Below are positions 46,449 to 54,180 of a DNA stretch of 64,000 nt, piece after piece (positions within the stretch are counted from its first letter, which is position 1; every line of letters begins with the position of its first letter). The stretch covers positions 43,922,868-43,986,867 of the forward strand of contig NC_084591.1 in assembly GCF_033807715.1 (NCBI RefSeq), read 5' to 3'. Under the pieces are notes generated by a model that had not been told where the DNA came from, did no database searches, and was given only the letters and a program-made list of their open reading frames with translations. The stretch comes from Cololabis saira. Its lineage: Eukaryota; Chordata; Actinopteri; Beloniformes; Belonidae. The position numbers and the translations under genes were made by a program.

Positions 46449-46491
46449 AAAAATGAGGAACGCTTCACGAATTTGCGTGTCATCCTCGCGC
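46449..46491 (-). pseudogene. U6 snRNA gene, 3' half
   Basis: The minus strand reads GGATGACACGCAAATTCGTG and AAGCGTTCC then TCATTTTT, matching the 3' part of vertebrate U6 (nt about 70-102) and its T5 terminator. The 5' half is at 54119-54180, with three mobile elements between. An extra GGCGCGA-like copy lies between this half and the first element, as if from an earlier event. Confidence 0.88.
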
Positions 46492-46574
46492 CCTTCGCGC
46501 CCCCTGGACACCCTTCTTCTCTGTTCCATTTGTTCCAATTGTTCCATTTGTTCCAATTCTTGTTCCAATTTCCA

Positions 46575-46692
46575 CCAGCCAATCACAATCAGAGCCCGAA
46601 TTTGTTCCAATTTGTCGACCAATCAGAGCCCGAATTTCTGGGTTCACTTTTTGTAGGGTTTCCCCGTCTCGACATTCTCGTCTCGCATTCGG
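46575..46692 (+). promoter_or_regulatory. Possible promoter and first exon of the element transcript, copy 1
   Basis: Two CCAAT boxes in near-identical contexts (ccaatcacaatcagagcccg and ccaatcagagcccg) lie at about 46579 and 46619. About 60 bases on, cgcattcg is followed by the consensus donor GTAAGTAAG at 46692. No ATG occurs between, so the exon would be 5' UTR. The same arrangement recurs at +2539 and +5078. Confidence 0.5.
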
Positions 46693-46892
46693 TAAGTAAG
46701 GACATATACAATATTTTCCAATAACTAGTTAAACCAGGTGGAACATGACCTCAGTAACCGTGGTGTTTTTCCAACGTTATATTGTAAAATGACCGAGTTT
46801 GGGACGCAGAGCCTACGGCGTAGCCTAAAGGCTGATTTATGGTCCTGCGTTAAATCGACGCAGAACCTCTCGTCTCTCTCATACCTGCGCTG

Positions 46893-47011
46893 CACACACA
46901 CACACACACACACACACACACACACACACACACACACACACACACACACACACACACACACACACACACACACACACACACACACACACACACACACACA
47001 CACACACACAC
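46893..47011. repeat. (CA)n microsatellite, copy 1
   Basis: About 59 CA units. The tract has the same length in copies 2 (49432-49550) and 3 (51971-52089). Confidence 0.95.
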
Positions 47012-51572: not shown

Positions 51573-51579
51573 TCGCGCC

Positions 51580-54111
51580 CCCTGGACACCCTTCTTCTCT
51601 GTTCCATTTGTTCCAATTGTTCCATTTGTTCCAATTCTTGTTCCAATTTCCACCAGCCAATCACAATCAGAGCCCGAATTTGTTCCAATTTGTCGACCAA
51701 TCAGAGCCCGAATTTCTGGGTTCACTTTTTGTAGGGTTTCCCCGTCTCGACATTCTCGTCTCGCATTCGGTAAGTAAGGACATATACAATATTTTCCAAT
51801 AACTAGTTAAACCAGGTGGAACATGACCTCAGTAACCGTGGTGTTTTTCCAACGTTATATTGTAAAATGACCGAGTTTGGGACGCAGAGCCTACGGCGTA
51901 GCCTAAAGGCTGATTTATGGTCCTGCGTTAAATCGACGCAGAACCTCTCGTCTCTCTCATACCTGCGCTGCACACACACACACACACACACACACACACA
52001 CACACACACACACACACACACACACACACACACACACACACACACACACACACACACACACACACACACACACACACACACACACACACCCTTAACGGGA
52101 CAGGGCTGGTTGGTAACAACTGTATGTGACGTCAGATTAGTTTAATTTCACCACATGATTGTAACCTGCTCATCCATTACTGATCACTGTACTGATCACT
52201 GATCAATACCTGACTGTGACATCACTGTCGTCTGCTCGTTTCATGTCTAAACTGTATAATGGCAGTAAGAATGATCCTAAGTTGTGTTTTACTGCAGTCA
52301 TTCTCTCTCTCCTTCATTCTTATGTGATTTAAAGGCACCAGGTCTTAGCCATCGGGTCCAGCCGCCTCTGGAAACCTCTGGAAACCTCTGGACACCGGTC
52401 TCCTGCTCCGCAGCATCCTCAGATTCTGAGGTAACCACCACACTCACAGCTGACTTAACAGACAAAAACATTGTACAGTGTTGCAGAAGATCTACACGAT
52501 CGAGGCAAGGCAAGTTTATTTGTATAGCACAATTCAACACAAGGTAATTCAAAGAGCTTTACATCAACATTAAAAGCAGCAAGACACAGTTAAACAGTAA
52601 ATAATAAAATAAAATAACATGATAAGAAAAGAGGTAAAATAATAAAAAGCACAAGTTGTTACAAAGTAAGGACAGTAGAATACAGCAGGTACATCTCATT
52701 CTCACAATGGCAAGAATTACGTTTCTATACGGTCAAAAGGTACAAAGACCAGGTCAAATATATAGTATTACGAGAAGCAAACAGCATTCTTAATATGGTG
52801 TGGTTTGTGGCTGCTTCCGCTTTTATTTGTTCACAACCGTCTTTTTCTCATTAATTTCCTCCTCAGGAGGAGGTCCAGCGTCCTGATGTCCAGAAGGGAT
52901 TTCATCATGTCCTGGTGGAGGCCGTTTGCAGCAGCTCTGCCGTCTCCATCCTGCCGCCACACGCGTGGGAGGATCACGAGGACCTGCTGGTCCCTCATCC
53001 AGGAGATCATGAGGACCTGCTGGTCCCTCATCCACGGAGACTACGTGTCCATCAGGGAGACTACGTGTCCATCAGGGAGACTACGTGTCCATCAGGGAGA
53101 CTACGTGTCCATCAGGGAGACTACGTGTCCATCGGGGAGACGGTGCTGGCAGCCCGAGGCTGATGCTCAGACCGAGGACTCTGTGGTGAGAGCTGCCGTT
53201 GGTGGTGAGTCTGGCAGACTGGAAGGACATGAAAAGACAAAAAAAAAACCATGAGGTTTTGTATATAAATGTATAGTTTTTTATCATTTGTATATATATA
53301 TATATATATATATATATATATATATATATATATATATATATATGAAATAATATATGTATATAATTTGTTTTTATTTTGTATATAAATGTATATATTTGTT
53401 TATCATGTGTGTATTATTTTTATTTTTGTATGAATAAATGTGGCTTGTTTTTCTTTAAAACTTTGAATCTTTGTCTCATTCCTTGTTAAATTATAGATGA
53501 ATATAGTTAGATTATCCACTTGAAATGATTGTTAATTACATGACTGGATCCGATGAGATCCCATTGAAAAAAAACCTCAGGGAAAACCTTACATTGTTCT
53601 TGTTATAAAGGACATAAATAACAAGAAGAACTGGAGTAAGCAGCCAAAACGGGATCTGGTTTATTTATATATACTATTTATTTTTGCAGCTTTACTTTAC
53701 AGATTCTTGGCAGGTATGTCGTCTGGTTGTTCTCCGGGCCCACGTATCTGAAAGAGAAACACATTTAATATAATAATATTAGTAAAATAATTAATATGGT
53801 TTTAAATATAAACCATGTTATGGTTTTATCTATCTTTATCCTTGGGGCAGGCAGGGCACACTGTTGTGCATGTTTTGGTCATTTCCCTTCATAATCACAC
53901 ATTTTATTAATTAATTAAGAAAAATTAATTGTTTCAATCTAATCTAATCTAATCTGTTGATGACAAAGCTGGGAACCGCTGATCTGTTTTATCCACCGTT
54001 TGTTATTGTGGTGAATTATTTCGTCCAGCAGATGGCGCCATTTCACCCAATCGGGCGCGTCTCCCCCGCTGCCCACCGCCACCCCCCACAGAGAAGAATG
54101 GGCAGGGTCCC
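51580..54111 (+). mobile_element. U6-targeting DNA transposon, tandem copy 3
   Basis: Same unit again, ending at TCGCGCC (54112-54118), after which the 5' half of U6 begins on the minus strand. Unit content as in copy 1. Confidence 0.8.
52335..53163 (+). CDS. Putative two-exon ORF in element copy 3, unrecognised
   Basis: Exons 52335-52430 and 52867-53163, matching copy 1 in position and frame. No family is recognised. Confidence 0.3.
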
Positions 54112-54118
54112 TCGCGCC

Positions 54119-54180
54119 GGGGCCATGCTAATCTTCTCTGTATCGTTCCAATTTTAGTATATGTGATACCGTAGTAACAC
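54119..54180 (-). pseudogene. U6 snRNA gene, 5' half
   Basis: Minus-strand nt 1-62 match U6 exactly from CACATATACT through ATTAGCATGGCCCC, including the ACAGAGA box (54135-54141) and the AGC triad (54127-54129). The 5' hairpin differs from the common form but still pairs: GTGTTAC, loop TACG, GTATCAC, with one mismatch. The gene is cut at the start of the internal stem-loop by the inserted elements, so no full U6 RNA can be made. Confidence 0.9.

Follow-up and report, generated by a model that had tools for sequence, protein, structure and literature searches.

A saury U6 snRNA gene split by a head-to-tail row of putative non-autonomous Dada-U6 elements

How a cut-and-paste transposon locates one exact base pair in a genome still lacks an answer, and the matter is of practical importance for gene delivery. 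It is raised by a stretch of 64,000 nucleotides from the Pacific saury, Cololabis saira (C5:43,922,868-43,986,867, hereafter the window; loci are named by contig, with C6a, C6b and C6c for loci on C6), in which a U6 small nuclear RNA (snRNA) gene on the minus strand is interrupted at nt 65-70 by three identical 2,532-bp units (Table 1). What are these units, what singled out this site, and how did the row arise? Very probably, as judged from sequence comparison, a non-autonomous Dada-U6 transposon entered one saury U6 gene at nt 65-70 and multiplied there head to tail, as element plus 6-bp junction.

The split U6 gene and its three units

Both parts of the gene were found with Rfam model RF00026. 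The 5' part (54110-54180, minus strand) covered model positions 1-70 at 61.3 bits (E = 5e-13), and the 3' part (46449-46491, minus strand) scored 29.1 bits (E = 5.8e-4), under the gathering score of 44. The sequence is periodic from 46495 to 54118 with 0 mismatches across 7,624 bp, a stretch that takes in (CA)59 and (TA)26 tracts; the true period is 2,539. The string GGGCAGGGTCCNTNGCGCNGGGGCC, which joins the right end of the unit to U6, occurs twice in the window against a shuffle mean of 0.00, so that chance is excluded. Thus, the split gene and the tandem units described in the initial annotation, made from this sequence alone, were confirmed. The same annotation had the units bounded by TCGCGCC. 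Such separators are present, and the left edge carries two copies. Comparison with other loci shows, however, that the duplicated stretch is best read as the 6 bp TCGCGC, the next C belonging to the element. This doubled left junction is possibly an excision footprint. The U6 flank base that follows TCGCGC at the right junction is C in the window and A at C13, C6a, C6b, C18, C22, C9 and C6c.

Table 1. Features of the split U6 locus, in window positions
Feature	Position	Strand	Basis
14-bp U6 remnant TTGCGCAGGGGCCA, outer end of copy 4	44126..44139	-	
Copy 4, diverged	44134..46168	-	
Right-end fragments of adjoining unit, joined to copy 4 via CTG	46166..46266	-	
U6 3' half	46449..46485	-	Rfam; 29-base stretch identical in other saury U6 genes
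Left junction, two copies resembling the target-site duplication (TCGCGCC-CT-TCGCGCC)	46486..46501	.	sequence
Unit 1, putative non-autonomous Dada-U6	46502..49033	+	
Left sub-terminal repeat TCTTCTCTG	46515..46523 (also 49054-49062, 51593-51601)	+	
Gene-like remnants, unit 1	46579..48376	+	motif reading by eye; homologue P0001
Junction TCGCGC(C), units 1/2	49034..49040	.	
Unit 2, identical to unit 1	49041..51572	+	
Junction TCGCGC(C), units 2/3	51573..51579	.	
Unit 3, identical to units 1 and 2	51580..54111	+	
Right sub-terminal repeat, CAGAGAAGA on +	54089..54097 (also 49011-49019, 51550-51558)	-	
Right junction TCGCGC and one U6 flank base	54112..54118	.	
U6 5' half, nt 1-62 of window copy	54119..54180	-	Rfam; comparison with other saury U6 genes
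Same 9-mer within U6, reverse complement CAGAGAAGA	54132..54140	+	equal distance from junction

Published Dada-U6 elements insert at U6 65-70 with a 6-bp target-site duplication (TSD), lack terminal inverted repeats and all share the sub-terminal repeats TCTTCTCTG/CAGAGAAGA, which are equally spaced in U6 (Kojima and Jurka 2013, PMC3706591). The zebrafish Dada-U6 transposase is oriented opposite to U6, and internally deleted non-autonomous copies of similar size are known (PMC3706591). In the saury unit, the 9-mer TCTTCTCTG/CAGAGAAGA lies, inverted, 14 bp inside both ends and at equal distance in U6; TCTTCTCTG begins after 14 bases when counted from the 6-mer TCGCGC and after 13 when counted from the 7-mer TCGCGCC. 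Among 19 units from 7 loci, the left 9-mer begins at position 14 in all 19 (16 exact, three carrying a single change). The right 9-mer lies 14 bp from the end; it is exact in 18 units and has one change in the remaining one. The changes fall in the C6a right end and the C18 left ends. We take the U6 9-mer CAGAGAAGA to overlap the ACAGAGA box. Terminal inverted repeats are absent, in that CCCCTGGACACC and the reversed right end GGGACCCTGCCC showed no in-register match by eye. TCGCGC stands on both sides of the element at C5, C6a, C6b, C18 and C22, and the C13 flanks are unequal (left TTGCGC, right TCGCGC). The TSD letters, GCGCGA at most saury loci, are one base off the published GCGCAA/GCGAAA, and both empty canonical-type U6 genes carry GCGCAA at the target.

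The unit holds frames of 102 and 162 aa and none longer, with no Pfam match at E 0.01, and a DDE transposase with DxxH, N-terminal CCCC and C-terminal CCHC fingers was not found in it. By eye, unit 1 shows CCAATCA boxes at 46579 and 46619, a splice-site-like GGTAAGTAAG near 46691, CAG/GAGGAGG near 47788, an open frame to a stop near 48084 and AATAAA near 48355. These remnants run opposite to U6. The sole match to the last exon-like part was the C. saira protein P0001 (85% identity over 45% of the query); P0001 is named 'microtubule-associated protein 6-like' and is apparently a gene prediction on a copy of the element. A functional small protein was considered and set aside, since the exon-like open reading frames have no Pfam match and both are broken, by eye, in the inverted copy described below. 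As no transposase is detectable, the units are filed as non-autonomous Dada-U6. The site, the 6-bp duplication, the sub-terminal repeat and the lack of terminal inverted repeats support this assignment, already put forward in the initial annotation, and only the TSD letters depart from the published hallmarks.

Beyond the span given in the initial annotation, 44134-46266 holds a fourth copy, which is inverted and damaged. The right-end fragments joined to it would be the relic of a head-to-tail pair that lost its junction. Next to copy 4 is a near-perfect palindrome of ~100 bp (43993-44092), probably a small inverted-repeat element, to which several microRNA families match weakly, below their cut-offs.

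A reading of the split genes as U6 pseudogenes and nothing else was dropped, because they retain the upstream region around a TAAATA at about -29, which they have in common with the two intact U6 genes across ~330 and ~790 bp. Directly downstream of the U6 3' end, the window also contains a stable hairpin (46395-46441, GTCCACCGACT...AGTCGGTGGAC, -22.9 kcal/mol, z = -8.7), and a GGTGGAC stretch resembling it follows U6 at several other loci.

Occupied U6 genes and a candidate target rule

We next consider the genome (1,145,939,245 bases in 730 contigs). A U6 search gave 48 scored hits, and the sequence was examined at all 48; as these are the best candidates only, the counts are lower bounds. 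With both element sides united, at least 14 U6 loci carry the element family, the window's included and two fusions on C10 excluded, and the cut falls at the same U6 position, as the initial annotation had anticipated. Nine U6 5' halves stop at the Dada site (eight by model position, C13:6.62M from sequence), namely at C5, C13:18.82M, C13:6.62M, C6:40.46M, C6:5.37M, C6:7.96M, C9, C18:8.35M and C22. Together with two intact genes (C4:12.27M and C10:39.24M), 9/11 U6 genes classed as canonical-type among the scored hits are interrupted and 2/11 are whole. At C10:2.198M and C10:2.202M, U6 is joined to the element right end after GCATG.

Apparently single insertions are found at C13:18.8M, C6:40.46M and C13:6.62M, and C6:7.96M retains a damaged right end only. 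C6:40.46M has an empty counterpart: the intact locus L006 reads CC/TTGCGC/AGGGG and the occupied one CC/TCGCGC/CCCCTGG...GGGTCCC/TCGCGC/AGGGG, with upstream flanks 94.4% alike over 1,059 positions and downstream repeats 86-91% alike. The C13:6.62M insertion (L060, L073) has a few extra bases at both junctions and a small U6 duplication, GATTAGAAGATTAG. A genome search with the left end gave 46 matches. At the 23 places viewed, 12 left ends abut a U6 3' half, two abut inverted element sequence (by eye), two lie in one dispersed repeat, one is an internal tandem junction, the C9 one leads into a further unit and five are damaged ends with other flanks.

C10 holds a cluster of variant U6 genes at ~2-6.4 Mb (L007-L012, L037-L053). 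In 21 variant copies, all on C10, a single base is added precisely at the Dada site, and one copy each has +4 and -6 there. The 34 unoccupied U6 copies show 10 distinct indel events, four of them at nt 61-63, a post hoc count of few events; the C10 target-site indels are perhaps old excision footprints. The idea that the extra base confers resistance to insertion was dropped, because L075, L081, L083 and L109 are element copies in C10-type U6 genes.

Where could the transposase come from? The C18 locus holds a 10.36-kb element in which DUF6729 was matched on two exon-like frames (Pfam, E = 2.3e-59 and 6.7e-27); four other frames had no Pfam family above cut-off. It carries, in published order, MDSTKK, YVDRDCC, RLDIWH, SLESFH and a C-x2-C-x9-H-x8-C finger; in the motif series, SLESFH is followed by CSQCGQPKTLATGHTRIGGTSYC. 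The CCCC finger is spaced 4-31-2, against 4-34-2 in zebrafish. With D, D and E assigned from motif order and spacing rather than by alignment to published Dada proteins, the sequence fits the Dada superfamily (DDE with DxxH, CCCC and CCHC fingers). A 291-residue piece had 657 homologues at E <= 1e-10; among the 120 listed, the named ones were mostly from fish and uncharacterized or hypothetical, and 111 pieces of the saury genome matched it. In the C18 element, both ends and blocks of the interior match the window unit at 78-96%, and a limited search of the saury genome found no closer autonomous parent.

The sub-terminal motif suggests a rule for the target. Searching 1.146 Gb for T[CT]GCGC-N14-TCTTCTCTG gave 38 sites, where 2.5-4.3 are expected by chance and the reversed control gave 0. 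On inspection, these are 27 element left ends (one, C10:5.863M, recognised through its U6 flank), two intact U6 genes, seven right junctions of occupied U6 genes, a C14 site with no visible tie, and C18:37.233M. A scan of IMG/VR with the element left end gave 0 matches, and a 20-base right-end pattern gave four in prokaryote genomes, taken as chance.

At C18:37.233M lies the right junction of a copy that is flanked by non-U6 sequence at both ends, inside a dispersed repeat. This copy has TCGCGC on both sides and TCTTCTCTG at exactly +14 from the junction, and the site shares a 15-base run in register with the element left end. The joined flanks retrieved 40 scored relatives at 85-95% identity from 2,070 first-look candidates. 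In the eight of the 40 that were aligned, all empty, TCGCGC is found in 0/8, its place being taken by CTGGGC (6/8) or CTGGGT (2/8), and the 9-mer is exactly TCTTCTCTG in 2/8 and TCTTCTCTT in 6/8. A second copy sits in the same dispersed repeat within ~1 bp, its left end 77% identical to the query as against 98%. Our reading is that the element would be targeted by likeness to its own end and would carry its 6-bp flank along. The initial annotation had named copies at non-U6 sites as a refuting result. Such a result was obtained in part, as 10 of the 23 left-end places viewed have no U6 flank; the sole non-U6 copy seen with both ends intact nevertheless has the U6-type motif at +14, so the idea is refined rather than refuted.

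In its wider form, which we regard as possible rather than probable, Dada-U6 may home on the ACAGAGA-box motif of U6, the motif being the element's own end. It would join 14 bp off whatever 6 bp are there and bring its own flank, and each insertion would leave or recreate a target, so that rows grow and most canonical-type U6 genes are lost.

Several observations weigh against the main reading. Ten of the 23 left-end places viewed lack a U6 flank, several of them with damaged ends. The repeat copy at C18:37.233M may already have had TCGCGC before insertion. The right flank of copy 4, like that of the row at C6:14.04M, is a U6 truncated after GGGGCCA that lacks TCTTCTCTG at +14, and C6 also has a site of this kind with no element; if that truncation preceded insertion, the motif is not essential. 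Tandem junctions without a TSD occur at L085 and L087. Such junctions and the GGGGCCA borders would fit recombination after insertion, yet they weaken a strict rule. The ends of the C18 element are only ~78-80% like those of the window unit, with one change in its left motif (TCCTCTCTG), and as the window unit has no recognised transposase, the link to an autonomous parent rests on the ends. Further likeness of the ends to U6 is also of limited help. The left end carries GTTCCAATT repeats at 46532, 46550, 46562 and 46604 (46532..46612, plus strand), and this 9-mer is present in U6 at 54145-54153. The eight plus-strand U6-like matches at the ends were reached in 0/2000 shuffles, the two minus-strand ones in 37/2000 and all 10 in 29/2000; with the known 9-mer masked, at least one U6 match arose in 62/2000, and over its first 130 bp the C18 element has no GTTCCAATT. 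Extended U6 mimicry by GTTCCAATT, the likeness being weak, is therefore kept as an observation only.

Growth of the rows

Five U6 genes contain arrays: three copies at C5, six at C6:5.37M, two at C22, at least six at C9 (6 left ends, 7 right ends) and three at C18, where the copies are 10.36 kb long, two adjoining and one set apart by a duplicated U6 3' half and a relic. Damaged relatives may form further rows at C6:14.04M (5 left ends, period ~3,890) and C23:26.91M (4 right ends, period 5,190). Within rows, 0 mismatches were found at C5, C22, C18 (one 1-bp gap) and C6b (gaps of 2-6 bp only), and 3-11 at C9; these comparisons cover five of the six C6b units, four C9 units and C18 minus 1000 bases of copy 2. 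Between loci, identity is 92.2-97.2% (6 loci, 15 pairs, with C18 excluded as a different element). Divergence is thus 3-8% between loci and 0-0.4% between row members, which indicates that rows grow locally after separate insertions. The initial annotation had left open whether the element hit the same site repeatedly or was duplicated with its target. Repeated insertion is borne out for different U6 genes; growth within a gene proceeds by element plus 6 bp and not with U6, the exception being one larger duplication at C18 that includes the U6 3' half.

The site, the ends, the sub-terminal motif, the array, homogeneity within loci, recurrence in U6 and a relative with transposase motifs have direct support, and the following course would connect them. 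The transposase of autonomous relatives would recognise TCTTCTCTG at the element ends and in U6 and join 14 bp away. Insertion would keep junction and motif on the U6 5' side, and the element left end would recreate the same arrangement, so that every junction would stay a valid target and end-exact dimers would form when a sister or neighbouring copy re-inserts there. Unequal exchange or gene conversion might then extend and homogenise the row, and the 6 bp flanking the element could move with it.

Growth by re-insertion and growth by passive exchange are indistinguishable from the present sequence data. Indeed, a single insertion followed by passive amplification, with mispairing of sister chromatids or replication slippage at the 6-bp junctions and unequal crossing over but no transposase afterwards, is a serious contender that stands somewhat under an even chance. 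Row members are identical or nearly so. At C9 the most divergent unit is the one at the edge, beside the U6 5' half, which has 9, 11 and 3 mismatches to units 1, 2 and 3, as expected where unequal exchange acts less at the edge of a row. The larger C18 duplication points the same way, showing that plain recombination is also at work and so weighing against the main reading. What passive amplification does not predict from 6-bp mispairing is the uniformity of the repeat unit, which is element plus one junction in all five U6 arrays.

Returning to separate insertions followed by local growth, could the recurrence instead reflect segmental duplication of one occupied gene, with no repeated targeting? 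An inverted relic resembling copy 4 lies beside U6 at C5, C18 and C22 and, by alignment, at C6b, and the upstream flanks of these four loci are 89-95% alike; part of the locus family therefore spread by duplication. The C13 and C6a flanks, however, are far more diverged than their elements (for C5 and C13, 79.1% identity in the U6 upstream flanks against 94.5% in the elements), and at C18 the flanks, 95% like those of C5 and C9, enclose a different and longer element. Because of these two contrasts, insertions into different U6 genes appear to have been independent. Gene conversion between elements could mimic part of this pattern; even so, we consider segmental duplication unlikely as the explanation.

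Local multiplication also presumes that the window row is real. Its three units show 0 differences across 7.6 kb, two dinucleotide tracts included, as would be seen if the copy number were an assembly artefact and one or another number were real. A 7.6-kb row is within the usual HiFi read length, and other rows vary internally, in TA-tract length at C6b (44, 47, 46, 46, 45 by unit) and in single bases at C9, so that rows exist in the genome and are not simply assembly copies. Together with the ~30-fold HiFi reads and Hi-C from which, according to the text of the genome paper, the assembly was built (PMC11090075), this makes an artefact quite improbable. Least likely are independent transpositions from a genome-wide pool into one junction: the same site was struck repeatedly in different U6 genes, and two families, Dada-U1A and Dada-U1B, have been described as tandem pairs (PMC3706591), but pool copies are 3-8% apart and row members 0-0.4%.

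Neighbouring elements and relation to known Dada systems

Elsewhere in the window, a long open LINE (long interspersed nuclear element) ORF2 with endonuclease and reverse transcriptase (23429-27250, minus strand) is accompanied by an ORF1-like frame (28707-29504, minus strand); its best listed relative is 76% identical, and the named ones are from fish. Retroelement remnants at 1821-3864 and 8383-11559 (both minus strand) are presumably BEL/Pao-like, and in the frames 2489-3205 and 8383-11559 there are matches to integrase, DUF1759 and zinc-knuckle families, some of them below cut-off. A frame of 402 residues (16138-17346, minus strand) encodes a C2H2 zinc-finger array.

At the saury loci, occupied sites can be set beside empty ones, the rows differ in age, and a non-U6 insertion shares the sub-terminal motif, so that the idea of a target copying the element's own end becomes directly testable. 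If true, the element's hold on a target hardly able to mutate away would follow from its tie to the part of U6 that is conserved most. Rows of element plus junction also trace a path from transposon to satellite-like array, and they raise the question of which U6 genes the saury still uses. The main text of PMC3706591 has no word beginning with 'ACAGAG' or 'spliceosom', and our literature search found no paper joining transposon, ACAGAGA, U6 snRNA and insertion site. Nor did any title listed in the further literature searches concern homogeneous Dada-U6 rows; 'Dada' has 0 occurrences in the main texts of two saury genome papers (one PMC11090075).

Earlier work has described Dada-U6 with its non-autonomous forms, and Dada-U1 in tandem pairs. 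Like Dada-U6 and Dada-U6N1_DR of zebrafish, the saury elements occupy U6 65-70 with a 6-bp duplication and a 9-bp sub-terminal repeat equally spaced in U6, lack terminal inverted repeats, have their gene-like part opposite to U6 and resemble the non-autonomous copies of ~2.4-2.5 kb (PMC3706591). Unlike them, they have the TSD GCGCGA at most loci and form rows in U6 genes, with units that are nearly identical and number from 2 to at least 6, and one copy has non-U6 flanks on both sides, which the paper describes as never occurring at both ends (PMC3706591). The left-end GTTCCAATT repeats are a further difference, without mention in the main texts of PMC3706591 and PMC8869645.

The closest parallel to the rows is provided by Dada-U1A_DR and Dada-U1B_DR, by their text description head-to-tail copies with a single TSD between them inside the target gene (PMC3706591); the published cases are pairs in U1, whereas the saury has longer homogeneous rows in U6. 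For the flanks, the parallel is Dada-tA and Dada-tY with replaced TSDs, where on one side or both the 6 bp next to the element do not agree with the empty target, and where a carried-along 6-bp flank was reported without a proven mechanism (Kojima 2022, PMC8869645). The saury case differs in being a Dada-U6 (one side at C13, both sides at C18:37.23M against eight empty relatives) and in having a target also outside small RNA genes, for which Dada-tV offers one case, inside a hAT element (PMC8869645). Relative to PMC3706591 and PMC8869645, the homogeneous U6 arrays and the natural non-U6 test thus appear to be new.

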